Shown here one piece after another: positions 478 through 33,320 of a stretch of 33,320 nt of DNA. The notes under the pieces were generated by a model that was not told the DNA's origin, searched no databases, and saw nothing but the letters and a program-made list of their open reading frames with translations. Position 1 is the first letter of the stretch; the number at the start of each line of letters is the position of its first letter. The translations under genes and the position numbers were made by a program. The stretch lies in NCBI GenBank assembly GCA_937919205.1, contig CALFOZ010000241.1:1-33320 (forward strand), read 5' to 3'. The DNA is from an uncultured Planctomycetia bacterium (GTDB taxonomy: Bacteria; Planctomycetota; Phycisphaerae; Phycisphaerales; SM1A02).

Positions 478-2190
478 TTAGTGCAAATTCTTAGTCGCCA
501 ATTGTGGATTTTTCGTTGAATCAAGGGCGGGGTCGGTAACATAGCCCTGCTCTTTTTCATCCCAGCGAATGGCTGTGAAGTCATAGCAATCACCCACGCG
601 CGGCTGGGTTGCAAAGTTATCAAACGGTGGCGGACTGGCGCATTGCCATTCCAAACTGCGACCACCCCATGGATTGGCTGGAGCAATGCGCCCGCCAAAC
701 AGACTGGCCAACAAGTAGTACGCGGTCAACAAGAAACCACAGGCCATGATGTAAGAACCAATCGTGCTGATCACGTGGTAAATCTGATACTCGGGCAGAT
801 AGTCGTAGTAACGCCGCGGCATGCCTTGGCTACCCAGGAAGAACTGCGTGAAGAAAGTCACATTGAAACCAATGAACACGGTGATGCAGGCAATACGGCC
901 GAGATTTTCGTTGTACATGCGGCCCGTCATCTTTGGCCACCAATGATGCAACCCGCCGATCATGCCGATCAGCGCGGAACCCATCATGACATAGTGGAAA
1001 TGCGCGACCACAAAATACGTGTCATGCAAATGCACATCGGTGTTGAGCGTGGCCAAATGGATACCGGTGAGCCCGCCAATGGTGAACAACACAAGGAAGG
1101 ACAGCGCGTACAACATGGGCGTATTCAACACAATGTTGCCCTTGTACAAGGTGGACATCCAATTGAACACTTTCACGGCGCTGGGAATAGCCACGCTGAA
1201 TGAAATTAAACTAAAGAGCGTGTTGAGCAGCGGGCTTTGACCGCTGGTAAACATGTGGTGGCCCCACACCAAGAAACTAAAGATGGCGATGGCGATTGAA
1301 CTGAGCGCGATGAACTTGTAGCCAAAGATGTGCCGATGCGCATGCACAGTGATCAGCTCGCTGATGATTCCCATGGCGGGAAGAATCATGATGTACACCG
1401 CGGGATGGCTGTAGAACCAGAAGAAGTGTTGATACAGAACTGGATCGCCACCCATGGATGGATCAAAGATTCCGATGTTGAACGCGCGCTCAACAATCAG
1501 CAGAAGAAGCGTGATGCCCAACACTGGCGTCGCAAGAACTTGAATAATGGCCGTGGCATAAATGGCCCACAAGAACAGCGGCATGCGGAACCACGTCATT
1601 CCAGGCGGACGCAATTTGTGCACGGTGACAATAAAGTTTAAACCAGTGAAGATGCTGGAGAAACCAAGAATGAACACGCCTGTGAGCGCGGGAATAACTC
1701 CGCCGGCTGGCGTTGTGGTTGAGTACGGCGTGTAGAAAGTCCAGCCCGTGTCAAAGCCGCCAAGCAGCAAACTGCTTACGGTGAACAGCGCGCCGAAGAG
1801 CCACAGGTAGTAGCTGAACAAATTCAGGCGCGGAAACGCAACGTCTTTGGCGCCCAACATGATGGGCATGATGAAGTTGCCAAGCGCGGCGGGAATACTG
1901 GGAATAATTACAAGGAACACCATGATGGCGCCGTGCAGTGTGAAGAAATGGTTGTAGACATCGGCGGTGACGCCTGGAATTGTTTGGCCTGGCGTGAGCA
2001 ATTCTGTGCGCACCAACAACGCGAACACGCCGCCCACAAAGAAACTGATCAACACGCTGACCATGTACATAACTCCAATGCGCTTGTGATCAAGCGTGAA
2101 GGCCCAACTCATAAAGCCACGCGTGTGCGTGAGGTAATTGTCGGGACGTGTGGCGGTGTCCAATGGTTGTGAAAGGTTGATTGTTGTCAT
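478..2190 (-). CDS. ctaD: Cytochrome c oxidase subunit I, A2-type (caa3 family)
   Basis: This is the catalytic subunit that reduces O2 and pumps protons, with a low-spin heme a and a heme a3-CuB centre. Ligands are visible: H86 in FFTLHGAIM (heme a), H262 and Y266 in [12 protein letters not shown] (CuB and the cross-linked Tyr), H311-H312 in WGHHMF (CuB), and H397/H399 in VVAHFHY (heme a3/a). The canonical D-channel Glu of HPEVY is replaced by Ala, preceded by Tyr-Ser; in the family this YS motif defines A2-type oxidases. I choose ATG at 2190 (MTTINLSQ, 570 residues), with AGAAG just upstream, over an in-frame TTG at 2223. It lies 52 bases after ctaC and 27 bases before ctaE. Confidence 0.97.
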
Positions 2191-2242
2191 ATCGCTTCTA
2201 CTTTCAGAAATACTTTTTATCAATCATCAAAAACAAATCCAA

Positions 2243-3355
2243 CTACTTCATGCTCACTTTGGGAGAGGGCGCGGCTTCCTTGAGATACTTGCCCTTGGTG
2301 TCAAACTCATCCATGTGTTTCAAGAATCCAATAATGGCGTCAATACCTTTGTCATTCAATTGGCCTTTGAAACTTGGCATGGCGTTGGCGTAGCCAGCCA
2401 CCACGTGTTCGCCAGGATTTAGAATGGACGCGCGGATGTAATCCTCTGGTGTTTGATATTGCTTGCCCGCGCCAATTTGACTTTGGTAGCTTGTTCCATC
2501 GACAAATTTGCCATCTTCGCCACCATTAACGCGCGACCACAGATTCTTCCACGACGGCCCGATGCCTTTGGTTCCGTCAAGTGAATGGCATTGCATGCAA
2601 CGCGCGTACAACTTTGGACCAGCGCGGAAATACAATTCCTCTTCTGGAATTTTGTCCAGCCACTGACTTTGCGCGGTCAACCACGCGTCAAATTCTGGTT
2701 GGGCCAACGCGTAGACCTTGCGATTCATATTGCTGTGACCCGTGCCGCAGTATTCGGAGCAGAACAAATTATGTCCAGAGCCTTCAGGCGTGACATTATC
2801 GGTTTGAAACCACAAATATGAATAGCGTCCTGGCACAAGGTCCTTCTTCACTCGGAAGTCAGGGATGTAGCAGGAGTGCAACACATCAGAACTGCGCATG
2901 GACAATTTCACGGGGCGACCCGTTGGTACATACAAGTCATCGCTCGTGGCCCCATTTGGATACTTGAAGAGCCAGCCCCACTTCTGCGCGGTGACCGCGA
3001 TCTCGTATGAATTCTTTGGCGGAGTCATGAAGTTCAAGTAATCACGGAATCCAAAGTAGAAAATGAAGATGACAATGAACAATGGAACAACAGCCCAGGT
3101 TGTTTCTAGCGGCAAGTGATGCAGAGGACCGTCGGTGCGGAATGGGCGATCCTTTTTCATGCGGTACTTCACCACCAGAATCACAAGCGCAATGACAATG
3201 CCAATAAAGAAGAAGTAGCAGACGACATTGATCCACCAAAACATCAAATCGCTGTTGACTGCGAGATTGCTGTCCTGCGGCGGAAGCCACAAAGTGCGTC
3301 CTTCGCGCGGATCGCCTGCGAGCAAGTTTGAAAAGATGGTGGTTGCAATGTTCAT
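2243..3355 (-). CDS. ctaC: Cytochrome c oxidase subunit II with fused cytochrome c (caa3-type)
   Basis: This subunit receives electrons and passes them to subunit I through CuA. The 370 residues run: an N-terminal segment, two membrane helices (about 38-62 and 86-104), a CuA cupredoxin domain with ligands H160, C199, E201, C203, H207 and M210 (CSEYCGTGHSNM), then a C-terminal cytochrome c domain with heme site CMQCH (253-257) and a likely axial Met in NAMPSFKG. The fused heme domain makes this a caa3 oxidase, so electrons may arrive without a free cytochrome c. No cleavable lipoprotein signal is evident. The ATG at 3355 lies 33 bases after the SCO gene, with no strong ribosome site. Confidence 0.96.
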   Translation of the reverse strand: MNIATTIFSNLLAGDPREGRTLWLPPQDSNLAVNSDLMFWWINVVCYFFFIGIVIALVILVVKYRMKKDRPFRTDGPLHHLPLETTWAVVPLFIVIFIFYFGFRDYLNFMTPPKNSYEIAVTAQKWGWLFKYPNGATSDDLYVPTGRPVKLSMRSSDVLHSCYIPDFRVKKDLVPGRYSYLWFQTDNVTPEGSGHNLFCSEYCGTGHSNMNRKVYALAQPEFDAWLTAQSQWLDKIPEEELYFRAGPKLYARCMQCHSLDGTKGIGPSWKNLWSRVNGGEDGKFVDGTSYQSQIGAGKQYQTPEDYIRASILNPGEHVVAGYANAMPSFKGQLNDKGIDAIIGFLKHMDEFDTKGKYLKEAAPSPKVSMK

Positions 3356-3388: not shown

Positions 3389-4294
3389 TCAGACCACTCC
3401 TGACACAATATTTTTTGAATTCACGTTTTTGGCGCCTGGAGCCGCCAAACGCTTGCTTCGGGCTTCATTGCGTAGCAACATCCATACCACGGTTCCAAGC
3501 GCGAGCAGAGTAACCGCCCCCGCAAGTTGCATGACGCGATAGGCCCAAATCACATAGCCGCCTTTGTTGGGATCAAATTGATGGCACCAAAAAACAAATT
3601 GATCAAATGTGGAGCCAAGCTTTCCATCACCCGCGCCGGTAAGCGCAAGACGCAAATCGGTTGGTGATTGCGCCACGCCCGGTAAATATTGCGCCAGCCG
3701 TCCGTCGCCTGTCACAACAAATACGGCCGCGGGGTGCGCGTATTCGCCGTTGTCCATTTTGCGATATGGAAATCCAACCGCGTTGGCAATACCGCGCACA
3801 CTGGCTTCGCTTCCAGTTAAGAAGCGCCACCCTTTTTCGCCACCGGCGCGCGCGTATTCCGCGGCGTAGCCCTTGCGCTTGGCGGCGGCCAATTCAAATG
3901 TTTCATCTGGGTTGATGCTGATGAACAACACATCAAATTCATCGCCCACCGACCAATCAAGTCCCTGCATGCCGCGCACCAGACCGTTAAGGGCAAGGCC
4001 GCACAACATGGGGCACTTCATGTAGCCAAGTTGAACAAGCTTGGGGCGGCCGTCAGTGAACAGTTCACCAAGCGTGATTGCTTTTCCATTTTCATCCACC
4101 AACGCGCTTTGCATTGGCAACACAACGCCGCGCTGATCCGTCACTTCTAGTCCCTCAAGTTCCTTGGGAGCGTCGGTGGTTTGTACTGGCGCCTGATACC
4201 CGTGTGGATCGAGCGGCCGTTGAGCGAAGACCGATTGCGCCAAAGCCGCCACCGCGATAAGACAAACAAGCAGTGTGGCTTGGCGCGAATTCAT
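3389..4294 (-). CDS. SCO1/SenC-family copper chaperone with C-terminal membrane anchor
   Basis: SCO proteins deliver copper to, or reduce, the CuA site of oxidase subunit II. The 301 residues begin with a signal-like helix ending near FAQ (about residue 25), followed by a thioredoxin-like fold with the copper Cys pair CPMLC (C94, C98) and the third ligand H187 in YAHPAAVFVV. An extra segment ends in a membrane helix (about 254-275), so the protein may be anchored at its C-terminus. The ATG overlaps the stop of the preceding small gene by 4 bases (ATGA), implying translational coupling. Its place directly before ctaC, whose product has the CuA site, fits the job. Confidence 0.93.
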   Translation of the reverse strand: MNSRQATLLVCLIAVAALAQSVFAQRPLDPHGYQAPVQTTDAPKELEGLEVTDQRGVVLPMQSALVDENGKAITLGELFTDGRPKLVQLGYMKCPMLCGLALNGLVRGMQGLDWSVGDEFDVLFISINPDETFELAAAKRKGYAAEYARAGGEKGWRFLTGSEASVRGIANAVGFPYRKMDNGEYAHPAAVFVVTGDGRLAQYLPGVAQSPTDLRLALTGAGDGKLGSTFDQFVFWCHQFDPNKGGYVIWAYRVMQLAGAVTLLALGTVVWMLLRNEARSKRLAAPGAKNVNSKNIVSGVV

Positions 4295-4737
4295 TGAGGC
4301 GCTCCAGGTTTCGCGGCGGGAGTTGCGGCGGGAGTTACGGTTGGTGTCGCGGTTGGTGTCGCGGTTGGTATTGCGGTTGGCTTGCTGTTGGCGGGCAATA
4401 TTTGTGGCGCGTTCTTGGCGTCTTGCATGAACATTTCCATGGCGCGATCAATTGGAATGCGCGTGAAAGTTGCGGTTGTTCCATCAGGCATGGTCCAGGT
4501 GTACTTGCTGTACACGGCCAACTCCTCGCGCTGGGTGGCGCGCAATTGCTCAAGGCTAAGCGTTGGCTGATCAATCACTTTGGCGTTCTCTTCAAATGAA
4601 TCAATCTTGAAATAGAAGGCGCTTGCCGCGACAATGATGACCACGAACGCGACAATAGTTGCCAACGACCAGAACCAGGTGCTACCTGGCTCAGGATCAT
4701 CGAGTTGCTTGAGAATGTCTGTTGGTGCGGTTGTCAT
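4291..4737 (-). CDS. Small single-pass membrane protein of the ACIII-SCO junction, function unknown
   Basis: The product has 148 residues: a short polar N-terminus, one membrane helix (about 22-42), a conserved-looking stretch YTWTMPDG followed by RIPIDRAM (93-100), and a low-complexity Pro/Thr/Ala tail (119-147). From memory, an IPI(D/E)RAM motif recurs in small membrane proteins encoded beside SCO genes in ACIII/oxidase clusters of other bacteria, but no function is assigned to it that I know of. It sits 21 bases after actF and overlaps the SCO start by 4 bases. A role as an accessory subunit or assembly factor of ACIII or of the CuA site is inference. It does not look like ActG by any motif I can name. 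Confidence 0.75.
   Translation of the reverse strand: MTTAPTDILKQLDDPEPGSTWFWSLATIVAFVVIIVAASAFYFKIDSFEENAKVIDQPTLSLEQLRATQREELAVYSKYTWTMPDGTTATFTRIPIDRAMEMFMQDAKNAPQILPANSKPTAIPTATPTATPTVTPAATPAAKPGAPQ
4297..4383 (-). repeat. 12-base tandem repeat encoding TPTA units
   Basis: Repeats of a 12-base unit (plus strand gttggtgtcgcg and variants) encode the Pro/Thr/Ala-rich tail of the small membrane protein. The copies differ at a few bases and stay in frame, consistent with replication slippage. Confidence 0.8.
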
Positions 4738-4758
4738 TTCAATGTTCCATTACAAATT

Positions 4759-6057
4759 TTACATATTTTCAAAACGCAAACTTTCAGTCAGGCGCGGGTC
4801 CTTGATGCAAAGCAAACCCATCGAACTTAATCGGCGCATGGTTGAGCCGGTGAGCATGAGCATGAATCCAATCAGCAAAACCCAATTCCATGGGCTGAGA
4901 AAATGCGCGCTTTCATTGCTGTATTGCGCCAAGATTTGCTCGTAGGTGTCGTAGGCGCCAATGTCATGCGGAATTTTGGGTTGAATCAAGTAGTACAAAT
5001 CAAACCATTGTGCGGCGACCATCCATACGCACGCAAAGAGCAACGTGCCGCGCCAACGCTTAGTCCATCGGCTGATTAAAAACAAGAATGGCAAAATGAA
5101 ATGGCCAAACAGAAGCACCACGCTGATCCAGCGCCACTCGCCAATTTGGCGCGCCAAAAACCACGCGGTTTCCTCTGGGATATTTCCATACCAAATCAAC
5201 ATGTATTGACTGAACGCGATGTAGGCCCAGAACACCACACCGAACGCGAAGAGCAGCTTGCCAATGTCTTGATAGTGCTCCGTGGTGATGATGCCCTTGA
5301 GGTAGCCAAGCGATTGCAAGCGCAAGCACACAATGCCGATGTAGGCGAAGCCGCCGGTGCAACAACCCACGAAGAAATACAAGCCAAACATGGTGCTAAA
5401 CCACGCGGGGTTCAGGCTCATAATCCAGTCAAAGGCGGCGAAGGATGTGGTGAGTCCAAACAGAATTGCGGCGGGACCCGCCCACTTCTCTAGTTTCTTT
5501 GTGTGCGCGACGGACCCGTCGCTGTCTTGCGCCACTGAGTTGCCCACAAAGAAGCGCGCTAGAACAAACCACGTCAGCACATACACCGCGGCGCGGATCA
5601 TAAAAAACTTTTCATTCAGAAACGCGGATTTCTTGGCGACCAATTCCGCCTCGGCCAAAGAAATTTCTTTCAGCGCCGCAAGATTGGCCCATGGAAAAAT
5701 AAAGTCCAACTCACCTTTCCACCAATAGAACACAAATGGCAAGAATCCAATCCAAAGCCATTGCAGATTTGCGGCGATTGCCTCGGCGGGTCGGCGCACC
5801 ACAACGCTCCACCCAGCGTGGGTGATGTGGTGCACGATCAAGAAAAACAACGCGCCCAATGAAATGGAGGTGACAAACAACCACGATTGCATCCATGTGC
5901 GCAGAAATAATCCCTGGTCCGGCGTGCGCATGCCCATGACAAACGCGATGATAAGAATCGCGAAACCAAGAATTCTTAAACCCGTACCAGGCGTTGCCAA
6001 CGCGTCGGCGCGAATATTGGCTGGCGTTAAATTTATAGCGGGCGCGCTTTCGCTCAT
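4759..6057 (-). CDS. actF: Alternative complex III subunit ActF (NrfD/PsrC-like, quinone-binding)
   Basis: This is the second NrfD-like integral membrane subunit of the quinol:cytochrome c oxidoreductase ACIII. The 432 residues are mostly membrane helices, beginning after a polar stretch of about 25 residues with GLRILGFAILIIAFVMG. The segment FFLIVHHITHAGWSVVVRR is typical of ActC/ActF proteins, and SQYMLIWYGNIPEETAWF is a recognisable family block. The C-terminus ends in a soluble tail. The ATG at 6057 overlaps the actE stop by 4 bases. In known ACIII structures ActF pairs with ActC in the membrane. The identity is secure from sequence and gene order. Confidence 0.94.
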   Translation of the reverse strand: MSESAPAINLTPANIRADALATPGTGLRILGFAILIIAFVMGMRTPDQGLFLRTWMQSWLFVTSISLGALFFLIVHHITHAGWSVVVRRPAEAIAANLQWLWIGFLPFVFYWWKGELDFIFPWANLAALKEISLAEAELVAKKSAFLNEKFFMIRAAVYVLTWFVLARFFVGNSVAQDSDGSVAHTKKLEKWAGPAAILFGLTTSFAAFDWIMSLNPAWFSTMFGLYFFVGCCTGGFAYIGIVCLRLQSLGYLKGIITTEHYQDIGKLLFAFGVVFWAYIAFSQYMLIWYGNIPEETAWFLARQIGEWRWISVVLLFGHFILPFLFLISRWTKRWRGTLLFACVWMVAAQWFDLYYLIQPKIPHDIGAYDTYEQILAQYSNESAHFLSPWNWVLLIGFMLMLTGSTMRRLSSMGLLCIKDPRLTESLRFENM

Positions 6058-6842
6058 AACTTGCCCTCAGACATTGATGTGGCCGGGTTGGATACAGAAA
6101 CATTCATTGGAGTTGGCGTCACATTGTTTGCCGCGTTGCTGATTGAAATAGTGTTGGGCGTGGAGCCGATGTTGTCGGCGACTTTGGTTCCAGCGGGAAC
6201 ATCCGAAGGTTGCGCATTTTGACTGCGTTGCAACGCCTTCACATAGGCCGCAATGGCCCAGCGATCCTCCGTTGGAATTTGACTGCCGTAGCCCGCCATG
6301 TTGCGAATGCCGTAGGTGATTGTGTTGAACAATTGTCCCATGGGTTGCACGGTGACCAATTCATCGTGCACTAGATTCTTGGCTTGCACCCACACGGTTC
6401 CATTCACGGGACCATTGGTGTTGGCCACCAATTCCATGGCGCGTTGATTCACAATTCCATTGCCGCCGCCAGAAATTCCGTGGCACACCGAGCAATAAAT
6501 ATCAAAGCGCTCTTGGCCGCGACGAAGCGTTGCAAAATCCATTTTGACTTGCGATGGAAGCACATTGGCCCATTGACCATCAATCACGCCGTCATACAAA
6601 TGCGCGTCAAGATAGGTTTCACCACGGGCCACCGCGTTGATCACTGGCGGACGCATGGTGTTGCCGTCGGCAAACATTGGATTGACGGCCTGAGTTTTAT
6701 ACTTGGACTGAAAAGCCATGTCCTGAATAATGTGGATGGGAAGATTGGAGTTGGGCGTGCTTCGAACGCGCGCGATAATTGCGGGCGGCAAGAGCAAGCA
6801 CAGCAGAAGAATCAGTCCAACAAATATAAAGATGCGTGGCAT
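6054..6842 (-). CDS. actE: Alternative complex III subunit ActE, monoheme cytochrome c
   Basis: ActE is a membrane-anchored or lipidated monoheme cytochrome c of ACIII that takes part in electron exit. The 262 residues start with a hydrophobic N-terminal segment (5-24) containing Cys15 in LLLCLLLP, which could be a lipid site although it is not a good lipobox. The heme site is CSVCH (117-121), and the likely axial Met is in RNMAGYGSQI (M182). The tail after residue 210 is Ser/Asn/Thr-rich and of low complexity. The ATG lies two bases after the actD stop, and the stop overlaps actF by 4 bases. Confidence 0.93.
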   Translation of the reverse strand: MPRIFIFVGLILLLCLLLPPAIIARVRSTPNSNLPIHIIQDMAFQSKYKTQAVNPMFADGNTMRPPVINAVARGETYLDAHLYDGVIDGQWANVLPSQVKMDFATLRRGQERFDIYCSVCHGISGGGNGIVNQRAMELVANTNGPVNGTVWVQAKNLVHDELVTVQPMGQLFNTITYGIRNMAGYGSQIPTEDRWAIAAYVKALQRSQNAQPSDVPAGTKVADNIGSTPNTISISNAANNVTPTPMNVSVSNPATSMSEGKL

Positions 6843-6844
6843 GA

Positions 6845-7462
6845 TTATGCTTCCACCATCTCGACGGCTTTGGCGCCAAGATCCTTCAGGAATTGTTCGG
6901 TGCGACTTGCGAAGAAACGCGGGTCACGTGATTCGATCACGATAAAAAATCGGTCGTCCGTGACGCGCAAGAAACGCTTGTTGGCAAGCAATGGATGATT
7001 CCAGCGCGGCAAACCGTTGAACAAGAACATGATTCCCACAGCGCTTAAGGCGGAAAGCAAGATGGTGAGTTCAAACATGACGGGAATAAACGCGGGCAAA
7101 CTGATCAGCGGCTTTCCGCTGATTAAGAATGGATATCCAGTGACCCATACCAAAGCCCAAATTGAGAAACTTGCGGCATTGGTAAAGGCTTGCAAACAAA
7201 AACCAATCATGGTTCCAGTCATGCCGGCGCCAAACACAAGCACTGGCAAAATAGTTCGTTTGATTCCCATGGCTTGATCAAGTCCGTGCACGGGAAATGG
7301 CGTGTGGCAATCCCACCAGCGAAACCCAGCCATGCGAACTTTGTCCGCGGCCGCCATGAGCGTTGCGGGATCATGAAACTCCGCCATGATTCCGTACAAA
7401 CGCTTGCGCGGAATTTGATTTCCTTGAATCACGGGCGCAGTGATTGGTGAAAGAGTTGTCAT
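6845..7462 (-). CDS. actD: Alternative complex III subunit ActD (DUF3341)
   Basis: ActD is a membrane-anchored subunit of ACIII without cofactors. The 205 residues show the DUF3341 hallmarks: [20 protein letters not shown] near the start, then [20 protein letters not shown], two membrane helices (roughly 76-97 and 117-142), and a cytoplasmic tail with [18 protein letters not shown]. The start ATG at 7462 overlaps the actC stop by 4 bases. Position between actC and actE matches the conserved ACIII order. Confidence 0.94.
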
Positions 7463-8997
7463 GGCGCGGATGGTCCTCCGTCTGGACCGCTACCAGGACT
7501 TCGCAGAGCGTCGGGACTTGCGAATGATGGCTGTGCGGAGCCGCCCGCATGGCCGTGATCATCATGCGTGGCGTAACCAGACCAATGCGGATTGGCTTGT
7601 GGCATGGTTGCCTTCACTTCCGCGATCGCGATCATTGGCAAATATCGGCAGAACAAAAGGAAGAGCGTTCCAAACAATCCAAACGCGCCCAACATTGTTC
7701 CCATGTCAACCCATGTTGGCGTGAAGAAGTCCCAACTAGTGGGAAGGAAATCATTGGCAAGGCTGGTGACAATAATCACGAAGCGCTCGAACCACATTCC
7801 AATGTTCACCACAAGACACAGCGCGAACATGATTGGAATACTGGTGCGGATGCTCTTGAACCAGAACAACTGCGGCGTGATCACGTTGCAACTGACCATG
7901 ATCCAATAGGCCCACCAATATTGTCCGAAAGCGCGGTTGATGAACGCGAAGCGCTCATACACGGCGCCCGAATACCACGCGATGAAGAACTCCATGGAGT
8001 AGGCGTACCCCACCATGCATCCCGTGACCAGGATAATTTTGTTCATGTTGTCCAAGTGGCGCAGTGTGATGAGATCCTTCAAGCCGAAAAGTTGGCGCGC
8101 GGGAACCGCAAGCGTGACCACCATCGCGAAACCGCTGAAGATGGCGCCCGCGACAAAGTACGGCGGGAAGATTGTTGTGTGCCAACCTGGAACTTGGCTC
8201 ACTGCGAAATCGAAACTCACCACGGAATGCACGCTTAACACAAGTGGCGTGCTCAACGCGGCCAGCAACAAATATGCGCGCTCATAGCGATGCCAATGTC
8301 GATTGCTTCCTCTCCAACCAAGCGCGAACAATCCATATGCGAATTGTTGAATGCGTCCGGTGGCACGGTCGCGCAATGTGGCCAAGTCTGGAACCATGCC
8401 CACGAACCAAAACACAAATGAAACTGTGAAGTACGTTCCTACCGCGAACACGTCCCACAACAGCGGACTGCGGAATTGCGGCCACATTTCCATTTGATTG
8501 GGAATTGGAAATAGCCAATACGCCAACCACACGCGTCCAACGTGAATGCCTGGAAAGAGTCCGGCGCAAATAACCGCGAAGATGGTCATGGCTTCGGCGA
8601 ATCGATTGATGCCAGTGCGCCACTTTTGTCTAAACAAGAACAAGATGGCGCTGATCAAAGTTCCGGCGTGACCGATGCCAACCCAGAACACGAAGTTGGT
8701 GATGTCAAACGCCCACATGACGGGATTGTTCAAACCCCACACGCCAACACCAGTGAAGATCAGATAGTTCACGCAGAAACCCAGCAAGCCGACAAGACCC
8801 AAACTGATTGTGAACGCGGCGTACCACGCGAACGGTGGCTTCTTGGATTCCGCCACTTGGCAGACTTGGCGTGTGACTTGGCCAAAGCGATCCATGTTCA
8901 ACACAAGTGGCGCGCGTACGCCTGGATTCTCAGCGGTGTTGTCGGATTCCTGAAAACCAGGAAGCGCGGTTTGGCGATTGACGGGAAGCGAACTCAT
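7459..8997 (-). CDS. actC: Alternative complex III subunit ActC (NrfD/PsrC-like, quinol-binding)
   Basis: ActC is the large NrfD-like membrane subunit, thought to hold the quinol site next to the ActB iron-sulfur clusters. The 512 residues have about ten membrane helices between residues 58 and 470. Family blocks include [30 protein letters not shown] and [18 protein letters not shown]. The C-terminal tail is polar, with several His/Gly (DDHGHAGGS). The ATG at 8997 overlaps the actB stop by 4 bases, and the stop overlaps actD by 4 bases. Family and order make the call firm. Confidence 0.96.
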
Positions 8998-11900
8998 GAA
9001 TGCGCTCCGTGATCGTGTCCGTGATCGTGTCCATGATCATGTCCAGAGTGATCGACCGCTGGATTGATGACCTTCGCCATGTACTTCACGCGTGGCTTTA
9101 CATTCAACTCCTCAAGCATGCCGTATGAAAGTTTGTTGGCGTGCAACTTGCTCACTTGGCTCTTTGGATCGTTCAAGTCGCCAAACACAATCGCCTGCGC
9201 GGGGCACGCTTGTTGACACGCCGTGATAATGGCGCCATCTGGAATGGAGAAATTGGAAGTGCCCGCGCTTGTGCCGCCAGCTTTCACCCATTGATTCTTG
9301 TACTTGATCTTGGCCGCGGCGATGCGTTGCACACAGAAGGAACATTTCTCCATGACGCCACGCATGCGCACGGTGACTTCAGGATTAAATTGCATGCGCA
9401 CCAAGACGTCTGGACCAGTCTCAACATAATATTCTGGCTTCACGGCGAGCGGACCACTTTGCTCGCGCACGGGTTCGCGCCGTTGATAATCAAAGAAATT
9501 GAAACGACGCACTTTGTATGGACAATTGTTACTGCAATAGCGCGTGCCAATGCAACGGTTGTACACCATGCTGTTGATGCCGTCGGGGTCATGCACGGTT
9601 GCGGCAACTGGACACACTTGCTCGCAAGGCGCATTTTCACAGTGCATGCAAGCCACTGGTTGAATGGCAAATCCATCAGGCTTGGCGGCGTCAGCTCCGC
9701 GGAAATATCGATCGATGCGAATCCAGAACATTTCGCGGCCGCGCTTGACTTGGTCCTTGCCCACGATTGGAATATTATTTTCCGCTTGGCACGCCGTGAC
9801 GCACGCACTGCAACCAGTGCATGTGGTGAGATCCACCGACATGGCCCAGCGGAACTGCGCGCCGTCCAAATTATTTTCTTGCCACAACGAAAGTCGATGC
9901 GGCATGTGCACTGCATGACCGGCGAAATCAGGATGGGTTTTGTATGACGCTAAAGAAGTTTGGCGCACCAACGTTGGCAATCGTTCTTGAATGCCGTCGT
10001 GGGGAACGCTTGGAATAAGCGCGGCATCAACGCTTCCGTGATCTTGCGTGTGCGCGAATGTGTACATGGCGCCGGTGGCTTGCACCGTTGCGCCGCGCAC
10101 AAGACGCATGGCGGAAGTGGTTCGTATTGGATAGGCGTTGAAACCGGCGCCCACGGCAATTCGTCCAGCCGATTCACCGCGCCCGCAACCAAGCGAAATT
10201 GTGGCGGCGTCATCAACCATGCCTGGAACTGGAAACGCCGCGGCTTGCATGCTTCGACCGCCAGCGGTCACGGTGACCATACTTCCTTGGCGTAGACCAA
10301 GTCGGCGCATTGTTGCCACGGACATCAGCAGAGCGTTGTCCCAAGTAATTTTGGTGACGGGATCAGGAAGCTCTTGAAGCCATCCACTGTTTGCGAGTGA
10401 TCCGTCAAACACGCGCGCGTCATTCATGAAACACAATTCAACGCTGGCGTCGCGGTTGGCGGGTTGCGCGTCGGCAAGAGTGTTGACGGCGCGCGCAATA
10501 TCGCCGGCGCGTGAAGAGACATTCACGCTGGTGATTGGTTTGCCCGCGATGATTCCAGTGTCAAGCCACGTGCGCCACGCGGCTTCAAAAGTTGAGCCAT
10601 TGAGTCCGCTCATGGCCATGTGCGTACGGCGCACCATGGCGTATCCATCTTGTGGTTGCGAATCACCAAGCGTGCTTGTCAGCAACATGCCCAGCGCTTC
10701 AATAGCGCTGTGTCCGCCTTGCGCTGGATCAATCATGGGTTGAATAAGCGGCTGTTGCACGGAAAGAGTTCCGTCTGGTGCGCGCACATCGCCCCAACTT
10801 TCCAAGAAATGCGACTGCGGCACATGGAATGTGCAAGCGGAATCCATGCTGGTTTCGTCGCGGTAATACGCCACGCGCGCGACGTTTGCAACCTTGCCCA
10901 TGGCCTTAGAGAAATCCAAATCAGCTGGCGCGTTGTAACAAGGATTGGCGCCAAGAATCATGAGCGTGTCCACTTGGCCCGCGTTCATGCTCTTGACAAG
11001 TTCAGGCAAGCCCATGGAGTCGTCAGTCATTGGCTCCATGTTCAGCGTTGTGCCGTTGGCGCCAAGTGATTCATTGATGGCGGCCACCAGCGCAACAACT
11101 TCCGCAGGTTGGCCATCGCCACACACCAACACGGATGAACCCTTTGCGCCCTTCAAGTCCTTCACAAGTTGCTCAAAAATTTCTTTCTCATGCTCGCCCA
11201 ATAAATTTTTTGACGCGGGGCACGTTGCCAAACGATCAATGGCGGACTTCAATGTTGAGTCACCCGTCATGCCAAGCGCTTGCGCGATCATGGCCACAAA
11301 CACGGGCATATCGCCGCGTCGAACGGCCAATCGACTGTCGGCGGCCATTCCAGAAACGCTCACGCCAGCTTCAACCACATACATTCTGTTTTGCGTTTGC
11401 TTGCTTGGATCTTCGGCGCGCACACGGCGACCATCGGCCCAAGCGCGCGTGTTGCGAAGCGAGAATGGACTTGCGGAAAATGGATCCCAGTCAAGGGCCA
11501 CAATCACGGTGGCTTTTTCAAGTTGTGGTTGCGCAAGCGTTGGCTGTCCAAATGCGATGCGCGAACCTTCGTTGCGCGCGGTGCCGAAGATGGGGTTCCA
11601 CTGAACAACTTTTGCTTTTGGGAAAGCCTGCGAGACGCGCGCGATCATGTCCAACATGGTTGGGCTAGAAGTTTTTTCCGTGAGAACAACTAGGCCATCG
11701 CCCTGCTTGGCTTGCAGTGCTTTGGCGCGCTCGCCAAGCCACGTTTTAAATTCAGCGTCGCTTGATGGCTTGCCCGCGCGAAAAACTTGGCGACTGCGAT
11801 CGGGGTCATACAGTTCAAGCACGCGCGACTGCATCCAACTAGTAGAAGTGCCGCCCCAATATGGATGCGCGGAATTGCCGTCGAGTTTGATTGGGCGGCC

Positions 11901-12401
11901 GTCGTAACTGGTGGCGAGAAGTCCGTACCCAATGCCCATGAAATCAACGGCGGTTGAATACGTCACCGACACGCCAGGCGTGCGGTTGGCGGGCTGACTT
12001 GCGTTTGGAACAATTTTGGATTCCGGCCATCGGCGGCAACCCGTCAGTCCCAGACCCGCAAGCGCGAAACCCGCGCCCATGATCTTGATGAAGTTGCGTC
12101 GGTCGTCGCCCTCAAGCACATCGCTGGCCGATGAAAATTCGCGCGCGATAAATTCGCTGGTTTGCGCGTCGGCGGATTGCGCTTCAAGAGAACGCCACAA
12201 TGAACGACCCGTGGCAGGATTTTTATTTTGCGCCGAGGCCTCTTGTGTTGAACCGCAACCGCAACCACTTTGTTCAGTGGACACTTCTTGCGTTGAACAG
12301 CAACCACCTTGTTGCGCGGGCACGCCTTGAGTTGATCCGCAACCGCAACCACCTTGTTGCGCGTCATTGATCGGCAAAGAAATATCTTTTGAAGAACTCA
12401 T
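8994..12401 (-). CDS. actB: Alternative complex III subunit ActB, fused molybdopterin-like and Fe-S subunit
   Basis: ActB joins a molybdopterin-oxidoreductase-like domain, which in this family lacks the cofactor, to a ferredoxin-like domain that carries electrons from quinol. From the ATG at 12401 it has 1135 residues: a Cys-rich repeat (15-58), a WRSLE block, a twin-arginine motif DRRNFIK (RR at 101-102) with a hydrophobic stretch ending TGC (C122), the large domain, then four-cluster Cys motifs [38 protein letters not shown] and CSFC with CQQACP, and a His-rich tail. I choose 12401 because it gives the same ATGA overlap seen at other junctions; ATGs at 12410 and a start at 12419 are alternatives. 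Export probably needs Tat. Confidence 0.96.
8997..9050 (-). repeat. 12-base repeat encoding the GHDH His-rich tail of ActB
   Basis: Tandem 12-base units (plus strand gatcgtgtccgt and variants) encode three GHDH units at the ActB C-terminus, just before the actC start. The repeat is in frame. Its role is unknown; it may bind metal. Confidence 0.75.
12228..12359 (-). repeat. Tandem repeat encoding a Cys-rich [11 protein letters not shown] segment in ActB
   Basis: Three diverged copies of roughly 39-45 bases encode [16 protein letters not shown] and SGCGCGSTQ, placing six Cys (19, 21, 34, 35, 47, 49) before the Tat motif. The usual ActB N-terminus that I recall has no such segment. If the Tat signal is cleaved, this part would be removed; if the signal acts as an anchor, it would stay cytoplasmic. 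Confidence 0.8.
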
Positions 12402-13051
12402 CGATGGCATGTTGAGCAATTAGAGTTGGGGTGAATGTTGTTGAGATTTTGTAACTCGACGCGTTGCGCCTCGGTCATTTCTTTATTCTGATCCCACGCC
12501 ATTTGCGTGACCATGGATGGAGGACGAATTCGATCGGTTGGATTGCGATGGCATTCCAAACACCAACCCATTGAAAGCGGAGCCACGCGATAGACCACTG
12601 TCATTTGATCAACTCGTCCGTGGCACTCAACGCAACCAACGCCACGCACAACGTGCGCGGAGTGGTTGAAGTAAGCGTAATCCGCCAGTTTATGAACCTT
12701 GACCCACTCAATAGGCATTCCTGTTTCGTAACTGGAACGAACCTTCTCAAGCTTGGGACTTTCGCGATGAATCTGCGTGTGGCAATTCATGCACGTTTGC
12801 GTTGCGGGCACGGCCGCGAACGAAGCCTTCTCAACCGAGGTGTGGCAATACCTGCAATCCATTCCCAACTTGCCCGCATGAACCGCGTGGCTATAAGGAA
12901 CTGGTTGCGTTGGCATGTAGCCAGCTTCCAATGTTTTTGGACTGAACCCATAGGCCACAAATAATCCCACATACAATGGCGCGATCGCCCCCAAAATAAT
13001 CACCAAAGGAAGAAATGCGTTGGACCAGCGTGGAAAGAGGAAGCGACTCAC
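12398..13051 (-). CDS. actA: Alternative complex III subunit ActA, pentaheme cytochrome c
   Basis: ActA is the multiheme electron-exit subunit of ACIII. The 217 residues have one N-terminal membrane helix (about 12-34) and five CxxCH heme sites: CRYCH (66-70), CMNCH (87-91), CVECH (140-144), CLECH (164-168) and CSTCH (212-216). The last lies at the very C-terminus, one residue before the stop. Five hemes is the usual number for ActA. The start is GTG at 13051 (VSRFLFPRW read as M), the only start that keeps the pre-helix segment; no Shine-Dalgarno is evident. It is the first gene of the operon and overlaps actB by 4 bases. Confidence 0.95.
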   Translation of the reverse strand: MSRFLFPRWSNAFLPLVIILGAIAPLYVGLFVAYGFSPKTLEAGYMPTQPVPYSHAVHAGKLGMDCRYCHTSVEKASFAAVPATQTCMNCHTQIHRESPKLEKVRSSYETGMPIEWVKVHKLADYAYFNHSAHVVRGVGCVECHGRVDQMTVVYRVAPLSMGWCLECHRNPTDRIRPPSMVTQMAWDQNKEMTEAQRVELQNLNNIHPNSNCSTCHR

Positions 13052-28323: not shown

Positions 28324-29517
28324 TTAACGCGTCAATAATTTGCCGGTGCGCAAGCCGCCAAATGAAGTTGGTAATAAATAGGAGCGCCCCTCAAACAAGC
28401 TGATTTCCCCTGAAATAATGCCGGAATTTAAACCGCCTGTAGCTTGGGCTTGCTTGGCCAGCGATTCGGTCAACGTGCACGGCAACAACTCAGCCTCGCG
28501 CTCACCCACTCGGCCGCGACTGGATTCAAACACAAATCTCCACACGCCATTCACGGGATCGCGCAGTACGGTGCCCAATCGATCATGCAGACGCCTGCCA
28601 GGTTGCAACCATTTCATTTCATTGGGCGCGCCTGGATTCAGAGCGGGCAACCGCGCGGCGTCCATGGAGCGTTGCACATCCCCCACGCGCGCCACAAGTT
28701 CCTGCTCAATATCTTGCGCGGAAATGCCGCCGATCATTTTTTGTTTTTGATTTTGCTCCATCGCCACCGCCTCGGAGGAAAGTGGCGAGGCGATTGAAAG
28801 AAATGCTCGGCGCACTAGGGCGATAGTTTGATCTTTGTTGGCTTGCTTGGATAACTGAGAGTTGCTTTGCGCCAACGCCTCGGCTTCGATGGAGCCATAC
28901 CACGCACCGGGCGGGGCAAAGATTGGCCTAGATTGGCGCGCTGGAAATTCGCTGATGGTGGTGGCAAAAAGCGGCATTACAAAATTCTCGCCGTGATATA
29001 GCGTGACGCGACCGGTGATTAAAAATTTGGAGATTGTCCCCGATGCCGCCAATGCGTGATTGCGAATCATGTCCGCCAATGTGATGGATGGAAGAAGTTG
29101 AACCACACGATCAGGTTCGCCCAGGAATGAATCCTGAAACCGAAAAACCCAACCACGGTCGCCTTCACTTGGCTCTAATGATCCAGGGACTTGTGTTAGG
29201 AACGCGCCTTCGGGCAACAATGGTGGACGCTCCATAATTTTTAATGTGCTTGATGGCGGCACAACAAGTGGCGAGGCGACTGATGGCGGCACAACGAGTG
29301 GCGAGGCGACTGGTGGTGACGCGACGGGTTGCGGCACAACGATTGGCGACGCGATTGGTGGTGACGCGACTGGTGGCGAGGCGACTGGTGGCGAGGCGAC
29401 TGGTGGCGCCACGGTGGCGGGCTGTACGGTTTGCGCTTGAGCGAGGGGCATCCGGGCTTGCGAAAAAATCGCCGCTCCTAAAATGATTCCAAAAGATTTG
29501 CAAATTAAAGTGCTCAT
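28324..29517 (-). CDS. Exported protein with Pro-rich repeat and duplicated LLPEG-type module, function unknown
   Basis: I recognise no named domain. The 397 residues have a signal peptide (hydrophobic 9-19, Ala-rich cleavage region AQAQ near 29), a Pro/Val/Ala/Ser repeat (34-90), and two copies of one module: about 97-185 (RPPLLPEGAFL, GWVFRFQD, VVQLLPSITLADMI, FLITGRVTLYHGENFVMPLF) and about 302-386 (WLQPGRRLHD, VWRFVFES, EAELLPCTLTESL, GIISGEISLFEGRSYLLPTSF). Between them is a charged, probably helical linker. I recall similar modules in other Phycisphaerae proteins of unknown function. The order suggests a cell-envelope protein with OB-like or small beta modules, but that is inference. 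Confidence 0.78.
   Translation of the reverse strand: MSTLICKSFGIILGAAIFSQARMPLAQAQTVQPATVAPPVASPPVASPPVASPPIASPIVVPQPVASPPVASPLVVPPSVASPLVVPPSSTLKIMERPPLLPEGAFLTQVPGSLEPSEGDRGWVFRFQDSFLGEPDRVVQLLPSITLADMIRNHALAASGTISKFLITGRVTLYHGENFVMPLFATTISEFPARQSRPIFAPPGAWYGSIEAEALAQSNSQLSKQANKDQTIALVRRAFLSIASPLSSEAVAMEQNQKQKMIGGISAQDIEQELVARVGDVQRSMDAARLPALNPGAPNEMKWLQPGRRLHDRLGTVLRDPVNGVWRFVFESSRGRVGEREAELLPCTLTESLAKQAQATGGLNSGIISGEISLFEGRSYLLPTSFGGLRTGKLLTR
29248..29418 (-). repeat. Coding minisatellite (PPVAS repeats)
   Basis: Degenerate 15-base units (plus strand ggtggcgaggcgact and variants) encode PPVAS/SPPVA units, with VVPPSVASPL variants. The units stay in frame and form a stiff Pro-rich spacer between the signal peptide and the first module. 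Confidence 0.85.
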
Positions 29518-29731: not shown

Positions 29732-30709
29732 TCAATCCTTGTATGAAGGACCCAGTGGATCCCAAATCAAATCGACCCGATTGAAATCCACATTTTTTTG
29801 CTTGGAGGGCTCGCTTCCGCCCGCGGGAGTGCAGGCCACCAGATTCTCGTACCAGTCCACGTGTCCATCGCCATACAGAAAGTGCCCGCCATTTCTGTGC
29901 CGCGCGGAGAATCGTTGCCAATCACCACGATGGCGATTGAGCGTCTCGCCGTAATAGGGATGCCAAAGCGCTGGAGGTTTGCCATCTTTGGTTCCGGCGC
30001 CATCAAGTTCCGTAGGAGTTGAGCGCATCTCCATCAACACCACCGACAGTGCTGGCTTCTTCATTTGACTTAATCGCATGCGCCGAGCGTCGATCCAATC
30101 GGAAGTGACGGCTGTGGTTTTAGGATCGTATTTTTTCGCAGTGCTACGCTCGTCAGTGGAGGGAAGCAAGTCCATCTGTGCCTCGATGGTGTTGTTTAAA
30201 TTTGAGTTTGGCACGTAGCAAAAGAAAAACTTGGCCTTTGAATTTGGAACAGTCCAACCCGTGAACACGCTCTGACCGCTACTAAATCCCGTAGGAGTTT
30301 GCGCGGATGGATCAATAAAAATTGAACCGCCATTCGGCGGCACTGGAATCGCACCATCCAATGAAGCCATGTCCGCGTACGCCGGTTGATCCACATATGG
30401 CGGAACCACATTTGCCCACCACCGCTGGCGATCAGCCAAATTTCGCGGCATTTGATTGGCGTCTTTCTCGCCTTCCCATGCCAGCATGCCCTTGCGTTCA
30501 GTGGCGAAGTTGACAGACCCAACGCCCCATTGCTTCATGTTGCTTTGGCTCACCATTTCCTTGGCGCGCGTTCGCACATGGTTTACTGTTGGAATGAGTA
30601 AGCCCAACAGCAACGCAATGATGGCGACAACGAGCAACAATTCGACCAATGTAAATGCTGATTGTTGCCGAGCTGTTGGTGGATGTGCGATTGTGTGTTG
30701 CGTGCGCAT
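29732..30709 (-). CDS. Type II-secretion-like pseudopilin, DUF1559-like
   Basis: The 325 residues begin with a prepilin signal: a short leader, then A18|FTLVELLLVVAIIALLLGLL with Glu at mature position 5, the site read by prepilin peptidase. The Gly normally before the cut is Ala here. A globular part follows, ending in the H-x-G-G...DGH motif (HRNGGHFLYGDGHVDWYENL) typical of the large planctomycete DUF1559 family, whose members are abundant and of unknown function. The ATG overlaps the stop of the upstream dockerin protein by one base (TGATG), so translation is coupled. Confidence 0.9.
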   Translation of the reverse strand: MRTQHTIAHPPTARQQSAFTLVELLLVVAIIALLLGLLIPTVNHVRTRAKEMVSQSNMKQWGVGSVNFATERKGMLAWEGEKDANQMPRNLADRQRWWANVVPPYVDQPAYADMASLDGAIPVPPNGGSIFIDPSAQTPTGFSSGQSVFTGWTVPNSKAKFFFCYVPNSNLNNTIEAQMDLLPSTDERSTAKKYDPKTTAVTSDWIDARRMRLSQMKKPALSVVLMEMRSTPTELDGAGTKDGKPPALWHPYYGETLNRHRGDWQRFSARHRNGGHFLYGDGHVDWYENLVACTPAGGSEPSKQKNVDFNRVDLIWDPLGPSYKD

Positions 30710-32448
30710 CAGTTGAATGAACCTAGAAGTGCTCCAAGATCAGCCGAGTCGGTGGCACCGTCTTTATTTAAATCCGTGGGGCATGGTCCCGATTGCGGGC
30801 ACGGCCCAAACAATCCAAGCAATGTTCCAAGGTCGGCGCTGTCCACGCCTCCGCTTTGATCAAAATCCGCTGGATCCCAAACCCGACACACGCCTTCGCC
30901 CAACGCGGAGAAATTCTGCGAGATCACCGTTGCATCATCAGGACAATTCGCCCATTGATTCGGCGCGCCAAATGTGCTGAAGCGCGCGGTGTCATCAAAG
31001 TCGCTGACTTGCGAAATGTGAGTGGACGGATCTTCTTCTAGGCGGCACACATCGTCCGTGCCAACACTGCCAAGGAAATATCCAACCGAGCCTTCGCCAA
31101 ATGGACCCGCGACAATTGCGCCACTGGTGTTCTTGATGGATACCGCAAATTCGTCATTACTGGTAGAAAAGGAGCCAAAACTAGCGCCAATTTTGGTGCT
31201 GGTTGTTGCCGCAATAACAGATGAATCGTCACTCACGATATTTATCCAACGATCGCCGCTTGCAATGTCAACGGACAAATCCGTGTCCGCGCCACCATTG
31301 CTTGCGTTGTTCTCGATGAGTGTGATGATGGTGCCCGATGGAATGCAAGACAGTTGGCTTGATTGTCCAAATGTGATTGTTCCAGAAGTGCCGCCAACAA
31401 CAACTTGTTCCCAAGCCAATGTCCAGCCGCGAAGATCTAGGCAATCAATCACCACCACAAACTCCATCCAGTTGCCGCCGTTGCCAAGCACGCGGCCAAA
31501 GTGCGTGTCCGCGGATGCGCCTCCATCGGCGTCCACTTCAAGGGTGCCGCCGTTTAAATATCCGGCGGACGTCACCGCGTTGTACTCATTTAAAAACATT
31601 GGCGTGCATGAGGCGCATTCGGCAAGCGCCGGCGCGCGCAATGTGGCCAAATCCTGATGCACTTTGCACGTGACAAAGATCGCATCCTTCCAAGAATTAG
31701 GTGAACCAAATGAGGAGTTGTCGCCATCGTCATACGAGGCGTTGGTGATGTCGGCGGTGGGTTGCGCTTCGAGCTTGCCAATCTCTGTGCTACTTACGCC
31801 ACTACCTCCCCAGATGGGTCCGCCTTCGCCGCAGGCCGGAGTAACCACTGTGTTGGAGGCGTCGCGGATTTCCATCAACCAAGCGTTGTTTCCTGTGCTG
31901 AAATTGCCGGGAACATCAAGGGTTTTGTTGGTGGTCGTTGTGAAGTAGGTCGGATTATTAAACGTGTGGGCGTTGATCCACCAATCACCGTTGCATGGAT
32001 CAAATGTGAAGTCATCGTTCTTGGCGCCGGCGGTGTTGGACGCGTCAAACTCGCAGACTGTGATGATTGTTCCCGCGCGCAAATCGCTCCAAGCGGCGTT
32101 GTTGGAGAACGTGATAATTCCTTGCTCAACCAAGCCGTTGCCATACCAAAGATCTGTTCCGTTGGTGGCCGTATTCAAGCTTTCGGCCCAGAGCAATTTC
32201 CAGCCGCGGACATCGAGATGATCTTGCGTGACAATCAATTCAATCCAGTTGCCGCCATTGCCAAGCACGCGACCAAAATATGAATCAACACCCTTGTCCG
32301 GATCACCAATCACTTCCGTGAGATACTTGGTGGAGCCAACCCCGTTGTACTCGTTCATAATCAGCCCCCCCGCAATCACTTGACTTGCAAACATTGCCGA
32401 CAAAGACAGGGCGATTACATTGTCGAACGACTTCTTTACGTCTTGCAT
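30709..32448 (-). CDS. Secreted two-repeat LTD-like protein with C-terminal dockerin-like domain
   Basis: The 579 residues have a signal peptide (hydrophobic 11-26, cut near VIAG), two copies of a ~220-residue domain (28-254 and 284-500) sharing NEYN, FGRVLGNGGNW, DLRGW and SGTIIT-type blocks, and a dockerin-like pair of Ca-binding loops (DFDQSGGVDSADLG 528-541 and DLNKDGATDSADLG 559-572). The repeats resemble lamin-tail (LTD) domains in their NE...W(I/M)E...L(D)RGW pattern; this is a moderate call. Dockerin-like ends in this phylum are thought to mark secreted proteins rather than cellulosomes. A promoter and an AAAGGA ribosome site precede it; it is followed at once by the pseudopilin. Confidence 0.85.
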   Translation of the reverse strand: MQDVKKSFDNVIALSLSAMFASQVIAGGLIMNEYNGVGSTKYLTEVIGDPDKGVDSYFGRVLGNGGNWIELIVTQDHLDVRGWKLLWAESLNTATNGTDLWYGNGLVEQGIITFSNNAAWSDLRAGTIITVCEFDASNTAGAKNDDFTFDPCNGDWWINAHTFNNPTYFTTTTNKTLDVPGNFSTGNNAWLMEIRDASNTVVTPACGEGGPIWGGSGVSSTEIGKLEAQPTADITNASYDDGDNSSFGSPNSWKDAIFVTCKVHQDLATLRAPALAECASCTPMFLNEYNAVTSAGYLNGGTLEVDADGGASADTHFGRVLGNGGNWMEFVVVIDCLDLRGWTLAWEQVVVGGTSGTITFGQSSQLSCIPSGTIITLIENNASNGGADTDLSVDIASGDRWINIVSDDSSVIAATTSTKIGASFGSFSTSNDEFAVSIKNTSGAIVAGPFGEGSVGYFLGSVGTDDVCRLEEDPSTHISQVSDFDDTARFSTFGAPNQWANCPDDATVISQNFSALGEGVCRVWDPADFDQSGGVDSADLGTLLGLFGPCPQSGPCPTDLNKDGATDSADLGALLGSFN

Positions 32449-32603: not shown

Positions 32604-33320
32604 TTAGTTGAACGCGCCAAGCACCAAACCAACATCCGCTGAATCCACAACATTGTCGCCATTCAGGTCGGAGATGCAGGGAACGCCAACAATACAATCG
32701 CCGTAATCCGCAAGAACGTAGCCCAAATCACTGCTATTTACAGAACCATCGCCGCTGATATCGCCGAACACACCCGAACCAACAACTATGTCAAAGTTGA
32801 CCGTGATGTTGCGCGACGCCGCGCCCAGAATGTCCTCATCGCTGGTGCGCACAGTGGCGATTGCGGAGTAGGAGCCAGACGTCACGCCCGTTGTGTTAAA
32901 AGCAAAGCGAAGCGTTCGCATACCTGTGGTCAAGCCAGCGCCAAGACCGCTGGCAAGTGAAAGTCGGCTGGCCGCGGTGCCTGTGAATGACACGCTGTCA
33001 ATATCCAACTTGGCTTGACTGCTGTCGTACAAATAATTGCGCACCCCCGCGTCTACGGTGACTGAACCAAGATTTGGTTGCGTGTCCATGAGCAACGTGA
33101 CGCTGTCCACATCCGCCACTGAGTCCAATGTTGGATTGCTTGAGCGAATCACTTGCGCGGAAACAGGCAGGGCAATGGACGGAGTCTCAACGCCCTCATT
33201 GCTACTGGTGACATTCACGCTACCCGTGGCTGTTCCAACAACTGAAGTATTCAGCGTGACAAATTTACTGATTGAGCTTGGCGACAAGGGACCAGTTCCA
33301 GAGGCGGTTCCACTGACACT
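32604..33320 (-). CDS. Secreted repeat protein with C-terminal dockerin-like domain, partial (5' end beyond right edge)
   Basis: The frame is open to the window edge, so the 238 visible residues are the C-terminal part. The first part has Ser/Thr/Val-rich, Ig-like beta repeats (SVSGTASGTGPLSPSSI, TSVVGTATGSVNVTSS) of the kind found in choice-of-anchor or adhesin-type extracellular proteins. The end carries two Ca-binding loops (DISGDGSVNSSDLG and DLNGDNVVDSADVG) followed by LVLGAFN, the same ending as the neighbouring dockerin protein. The 155 bases between the two genes contain the next gene's promoter. The function is unknown; surface location is likely. Confidence 0.82.
   Translation of the reverse strand, partial: SVSGTASGTGPLSPSSISKFVTLNTSVVGTATGSVNVTSSNEGVETPSIALPVSAQVIRSSNPTLDSVADVDSVTLLMDTQPNLGSVTVDAGVRNYLYDSSQAKLDIDSVSFTGTAASRLSLASGLGAGLTTGMRTLRFAFNTTGVTSGSYSAIATVRTSDEDILGAASRNITVNFDIVVGSGVFGDISGDGSVNSSDLGYVLADYGDCIVGVPCISDLNGDNVVDSADVGLVLGAFN

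Follow-up and report, generated by a model that had tools for sequence, protein, structure and literature searches.

The window, by which we mean the whole stretch of 33,320 nucleotides analyzed here, carries an operon with the gene order ActA, B, C, D, E, F, ActG homologue, SCO, CtaC and CtaD. The ORF of interest lies on the minus strand at 4291–4737, starts with an ATG codon and encodes a protein of 148 amino acids. It is directly preceded within the act cluster by actF, from whose end (4759) it is separated by a 21-base gap (4738–4758), and it overlaps the SCO gene by four bases (4291–4294, ATGA). When compared with the PDB, the ActB, ActC and ActF proteins of the window all matched chains of the solved alternative complex III (ACIII). 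The first-pass annotation had placed the ORF in an operon with its neighbours, citing the same gap and overlap, and this reading was borne out by the coordinates and by the Pfam and PDB matches. The features are as follows.

478–2223, minus strand: ctaD, encoding COX1 (PF00115, E = 2.5e-151)
2243–3355, minus strand: ctaC, encoding COX2 with a C-terminal cytochrome c, caa3 type (PF00116, PF00034)
3389–4294, minus strand: gene for the SCO copper chaperone, directly downstream of actG (PF02630, E = 9.3e-11)
4291–4737, minus strand: actG homologue, an ORF of 148 amino acids (match of the family profile to PDB ActG, E = 8.2e-5, later 4e-7)
4294–4383, minus strand: Pro/Thr/Ala-rich tail of the ActG homologue, residues 119–148, variable among relatives (translation, alignment A1)
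4438–4461, minus strand: RIPIDRAM motif, residues 93–100 (conservation; an AlphaFold2 (AF2) helix, 96–109, starts just past the Pro)
4510–4557, minus strand: predicted second helix, residues 61–76, past the transmembrane helix (AF2 model, moderate confidence)
4609–4665, minus strand: predicted single transmembrane helix, residues 25–43 (hydropathy maximum; AF2 helix 17–56)
4759–6057, minus strand: actF, directly upstream of actG (PDB ActF: 6f0k_F, E = 2.1e-61; 8k9e_F, E = 1.3e-41)
6054–6842, minus strand: actE, encoding a cytochrome c (PF13442, E = 5.9e-12)
6845–7462, minus strand: actD (PF11821, E = 2.3e-60)
7459–8997, minus strand: actC, NrfD-like (PF03916; matches 6f0k_C and 8k9e_C)
8994–12419, minus strand: actB (matches 8k9e_B, 6lod_B and 6f0k_B)
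12398–13051, minus strand: actA, encoding a multihaem cytochrome c (PF14522, E = 1.7e-12)

Assignment and architecture of the 148-residue protein

Single-sequence searches with the window protein against Pfam, NCBIfam and the PDB returned nothing relevant. Matches at E ≤ 0.1 were found in 31 of the 41 genomes of its own genus, family and order (its own included), some of them weak or of low complexity. A profile of 18 sequences (A2) matched ActG in the PDB with E = 8.2e-5, the next match being at 0.43, and a profile of 58 sequences (A5) matched it with E = 4e-7, the next match being at 0.15; ActG was the sole convincing PDB protein. This ActG is chain G of the ACIII entries 8k9e, 8k9f, 8x2j and 9ilt, presumably from Chloroflexus aurantiacus, and the same entries also hold homologues of the ActB, ActC and ActF proteins of the window. 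In the reverse direction, a 39-residue piece of PDB ActG retrieved 46 ORFs at E ≤ 0.1 among 14,767 locus ORFs; counted as distinct ORFs, there were 45 matches among 14,494, and all 45 were G ORFs by profile A5. When the 58 members were run against Pfam and NCBIfam, no family matched more than three of them, among the 25 most frequent of the 50 families in each. COX4, the Pfam oxidase small subunit, was considered and rejected: it gave no listed match for the window protein and matched one of the 58 members, at E = 0.03.

Because of the profile match, the ActB, ActC and ActF homologues in the same entries, the reciprocal retrieval and the lack of any consistent Pfam or NCBIfam match, the window protein is very probably ActG. 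By these comparisons, it would be a known, little-studied subunit of respiratory ACIII. The gene is real and had been correctly read; only the label "unnamed" was wrong, since the protein has a name and a family with a chain in solved ACIII structures. It is highly improbable that the window protein is an unrelated small protein sharing a short common motif with ActG, as the roughly 40-residue alignment and the empty single-sequence searches might suggest, since the E-value of 4e-7 has no competing match, retrieval was reciprocal for 45 of 45 distinct ORFs, I94-P95 of the motif falls at equal residue numbers in both proteins, and the gene comes after actF, just as actG does in the available text of PMC3150298.

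The significant match to PDB ActG spans the C-terminal ≈40 residues only, and the two proteins share a C-terminal domain with IPIDRAM at I94-P95, identical in residue numbering. The PDB chain has 112 residues; the window protein, with 148, is longer ahead of the motif and ends in a Pro/Thr-rich tail. Unlike the gene for PDB ActG, the window actG belongs to an operon that encodes a caa3 oxidase along with the full act cluster. No assigned role for ActG was found in the literature passages available. In the literature text, no paper naming 8k9e, 8k9f, 8x2j or 9ilt was found, and IPIDRAM occurred only in a paper on salmon.

The window protein has one hydrophobic maximum, at residues 25–43 (mean hydropathy 2.56), predicting a single transmembrane helix. 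An AF2 model made with 48 sequences (pLDDT 78.6, pTM 0.38) has a long helix at 17–56 that includes this stretch, a helix at 61–76, two short strands and a helix at 96–109, past the motif Pro; the single long helix at the hydropathy maximum agrees with the one membrane helix proposed in the first-pass annotation. Foldseek with this model (pTM 0.38) gave one weak unrelated match and did not return ActG. There is no Cys or His among the 148 residues, and no redox cofactor site. The orientation in the membrane was read in two opposite ways. In 40 of the 58 sequences, Lys and Arg are more numerous past the transmembrane helix, and in 9 before it, which suggests that the C-terminus is cytoplasmic. 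Some relatives have N-terminal extensions of ≈95–170 amino acids with no obvious signal peptide by eye, suggesting instead that the N-terminus is inside.

The RIPIDRAM motif, which the first-pass annotation had pointed out, is real and occupies residues 93–100. In 26 sequences gathered independently of the motif, P95 and A99 were invariant and I94 was at least 90% conserved; P95 and A99 were invariant again in a second set of 26 that partly overlapped the first. Conservation of the motif is thus, as far as these alignments indicate, beyond chance. R98 and M100 also look conserved in the 58-sequence set, but this is partly built in, because 47 of the 58 sequences were fetched by the pattern IP[IV][DE]RAM. 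Of the MEMFM stretch, M100 alone recurs across the alignments.

Two kinds of N-terminal region were noticed among the relatives. Five from one Bacteroidota class (L208, L210, L211, L213 and L216) have, in our view, an HTH-like domain before the transmembrane helix; that of L216 matched Pfam HTH_Tnp_1 at 24.2 bits (cut-off 24.1), and those of L208 and L211 matched nothing in Pfam above the cut-off. A respiratory subunit carrying a membrane-bound HTH would be an odd fusion. Nine others (L194–L198, L201, L202, L204 and L136) have a region that looks fibronectin-III-like by eye, for which Pfam gave nothing above the cut-off with L195 and L204.

Occurrence and gene neighbourhood of ActG

The family was seen in Planctomycetota, Acidobacteria, Bacteroidetes, Verrucomicrobia, Gemmatimonadetes and others. 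Among 246 Planctomycetota genomes, 50 had a G match and 137 had ActD. ActD was present in 49 of these 50, the exception (G103) being a match to the transmembrane region only, as was that in G208. Of 52 Planctomycetota matches, 47 lay on the strand of ActD, 1.6–3.1 kb downstream of it; the other five comprised two with ActD on a different contig and three weak matches in the transmembrane region. In Acidobacteriota, G was found in 95 of 247 genomes and ActD in 177, including all 95 with G, and 88 of 97 G matches adjoined ActD, among the matches listed. In the Bacteroidota class of L112, G was present in 78 of 80 genomes. Finally, ActD was found in 15 of the 16 genomes reached through their loci (G285 included); the one in which ActD was not matched is the fragmented L072 genome, where ActE and ActF immediately precede G. 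Among the genomes searched for ActD, convincing members were therefore found only where ACIII genes occur (in L072 by way of ActE and ActF), which agrees with the co-occurrence expected from the first-pass annotation; neither of the findings that the annotation had named as contrary evidence turned up.

This distribution bears on earlier descriptions. The available text of PMC9316378 describes ActG as specific to C. aurantiacus and as lacking in R. marinus; the claim of specificity does not hold against the present distribution. In R. marinus, according to the part of PMC5928083 available, ActG was detected by mass spectrometry and had no density, has one predicted transmembrane helix, like the window protein, and is encoded by a gene that is not in every act cluster. 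R. marinus ActG may belong to the same family, a suggestion drawn from the 78 of 80 genomes in the L112 class. In the passages available, actG was not found in Melioribacter (PMC3534657), and actF and actG were missing from Nitrospirales genomes with ACIII-like genes (PMC12342949).

To describe the neighbourhood, we used a scan of one genome per species in which 564 pattern matches led to 408 relatives, of which the best 80 were kept. The order in most loci was ActF-G-SCO-COX2-COX1. Among those of the best 80 of 408 with enough contig, ActF was upstream of G in 72 of 75 and ActC in 60 of 63, while SCO was downstream in 68 of 74 (L077, missed by the counting rule, is a 69th), COX2 in 65 of 69 and COX1 in 63 of 67. 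Thirty Bacteroidota loci with short flanks gave a similar picture (ActF 29/30, SCO 26/30, COX2 29/30). The available literature describes ACIII genes followed by those for an A2-type caa3 oxidase in Acidobacteria (PMC8407424) and adjoining cbb3 in verrucomicrobial methanotrophs (PMC8498564).

Several loci departed from this order. In L095, L108 and L134, G-SCO-COX was found without adjoining ACIII, and ActD lay elsewhere in each genome. Each of these genomes has one G, beside SCO-COX, and no G-like ORF was found in their four ACIII loci. Three Acidobacteriota loci (L186–L188) had the order B-E-G-SCO-COX2-COX1-...-C; ActF came behind C in two of them, L187 and L188, and ActA was seen in L187. 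Behind ACIII-G, L114 and L131 had an oxidase gene of the COX1 family and no SCO; FixO is present too in L114, which indicates an oxidase of the cbb3 type there. L136 had G-COX2-COX1 and no SCO. No SCO or COX match was found behind ACIII-G over 5.7 kb in L079 and over 1.9 kb in L072. According to the available text of PMC3150298, C. aurantiacus actG follows actF in the Cp operon (actABCDEFG, described without oxidase genes) and precedes SCO in the Cr operon, which comprises B, E, A, G, SCO and COX and lacks C, D and F. L186–L188 share the position of G before SCO with the Cr operon and resemble it in order, but have ActC in the same cluster.

ActD was present and no G profile match was found in 88 Planctomycetota and 82 Acidobacteriota genomes. 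From this pool, we took 20 regions of each phylum, hand-picked for variety rather than at random, some of them short. Where SCO-COX2-COX1 was present, a weak G-like ORF was found in 6 of 6 Planctomycetota and 15 of 16 Acidobacteriota loci, the exception (L173) having none despite a 941-base gap. Loci of the order SCO-COX1-...-COX2 had no G match (0/4 Planctomycetota, 0/3 Acidobacteriota), and those without an SCO match had a G-like ORF in 1 of 10 Planctomycetota (L142) and 0 of 1 Acidobacteriota; two of these ten Planctomycetota loci, L147 and L153, have COX2-COX1. Altogether, a G-like ORF was found in 21 of 22 profile-negative loci with SCO-COX2-COX1 versus 1 of 18 without. These ORFs scored 10.5–39 bits (E < 0.5), and the calls rest partly on position. 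In L162, ActB and ActC matched only partly, so that ACIII is incomplete in the data.

Because 0 of 7 SCO-COX1-...-COX2 loci matched G, ActG is not general to ACIII–oxidase pairs. In four of the seven, the ActF-SCO gap of 934–1220 bases leaves space for a gene. Four loci of this order (L149, L175, L176 and L185), with no G match, have a weak match to an ActE-like cytochrome c between ActF and SCO. Haem c was considered as a separator of the oxidase types with and without G and was rejected: CxxCH was present in the COX2 frames of both, in 7 of 7 loci of the SCO-COX1-...-COX2 order and in 101 of 101 others; 3 further loci had none. The overlooked G-like ORFs sit in oxidase-linked clusters, and because the sample was drawn from profile-negative genomes, it gives no rate of G for oxidase-free ACIII clusters.

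Possible functions of ActG

The first-pass annotation had argued from position for a role in ACIII/oxidase assembly, copper delivery or the bridging of ACIII and caa3. The association with ACIII, SCO and the oxidase was strongly supported; the copper delivery part was not. SCO/Cox11-type copper chaperones offer a natural comparison, since SCO is encoded by the neighbouring gene and is membrane-anchored like ActG, but the window ActG, unlike them, has no Cys or His to serve as copper ligands, and only M100 of MEMFM recurs. A copper chaperone for the oxidase is unlikely on these grounds. Because of the AF2 model and the absence of Cys and His, a carrier of electrons or copper is unlikely, and a scaffold or docking element fits.

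Our preferred reading is that ActG is a small accessory subunit of ACIII, with one transmembrane helix and a short C-terminal domain of helix, hairpin and RIPIDRAM helix. The transmembrane helix would lie at the periphery of ACIII, with the conserved RIPIDRAM helix presenting a docking surface by which the partner haem-copper oxidase (here caa3) would be placed or stabilized beside ACIII. ActG itself would carry neither electrons nor copper. Taken as a whole, we give this statement, identity included, a probability of about 0.52. The docking or stabilizing role toward the oxidase, considered by itself, is held tentatively, at a little under even odds. More speculatively, ActG might be a coupler of ACIII to the oxidase, belonging physically to ACIII and genetically to the SCO-caa3 (sometimes cbb3) module, with RIPIDRAM as its docking element; this we regard as possible and on balance doubtful.

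Gene linkage suggests, short of proof, that ActG couples ACIII to a partner oxidase, and a bridging subunit is the reading that it favours, because G stays with the SCO and oxidase genes in the split and rearranged loci. Confidence in docking was held down because of L079 and L072 and the bias in sampling profile-negative loci. The actG of the Chloroflexus Cp operon, L079, L072 and the Flavobacterium supercomplex argue against a docking function that is general or essential: in the available passages, the ACIII of F. johnsoniae has six subunits, ActA–F (PMC8552683), and its supercomplex forms via oxidase subunit III (PMC8361435).

The alternative that survives best, though we think it rather unlikely, is that ActG is purely a structural or stability subunit of ACIII and that its position before SCO reflects an old gene order. 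This would agree with the chain in the solved ACIII, with the Cp operon having actG without oxidase genes in the available text of PMC3150298, with the lack of an oxidase behind ACIII-G in L079 and L072, and with the finding of convincing members only where the genome has ACIII genes. It is harder to reconcile with the genomes in which ACIII and oxidase are split, where the sole G stays beside SCO-COX (L095, L108, L134), with the retention of G before SCO in the three rearranged clusters, and with the uneven occurrence of weak G-like ORFs in profile-negative loci (21/22 versus 1/18).

An oxidase assembly factor that, with SCO, loads copper into CtaC would explain why SCO lies downstream of G in 68 of 74 loci among the best 80 of 408 and why G keeps its place before SCO in clusters with a rearranged ACIII. 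We consider this improbable, given that the protein lacks Cys and His, that ACIII structures contain its homologue as a chain, that G precedes oxidase genes without SCO in L114, L131 and L136, and that the searches made found no convincing member in a genome without ACIII genes.

On the docking reading, the gene linkage of ActG gives a testable prediction about how ACIII and oxidase are joined, and if the coupler reading is true, ActG would be a dedicated link in a widespread class of respiratory superoperons. ActG belongs to a kind of protein that is known and widespread yet has been neglected, and showing a multi-phylum family with one signature allows its annotation; among the Pfam and NCBIfam families listed, none corresponds to it.

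Three other features of the window were noted, all on the minus strand. The ORF at 28324–29517 has PVASPPVASPP repeats near the N-terminus of its product and no Pfam match at E ≤ 0.001. The ORFs at 30709–32448 and 32604–33287 encode paired C-terminal Asp-rich repeats that, judged by eye, resemble those of dockerins; Pfam at E ≤ 0.001 gave no match for either product. Lastly, provided that the TTG start is correct, the N-terminus of ActB (≈12225–12350) contains Cys- and Gly-rich near-repeats (GGCGCGSTQ); of 39 other ActB frames tested, only 3 had at least two Cys in the stretch ahead of the conserved WRSLE.
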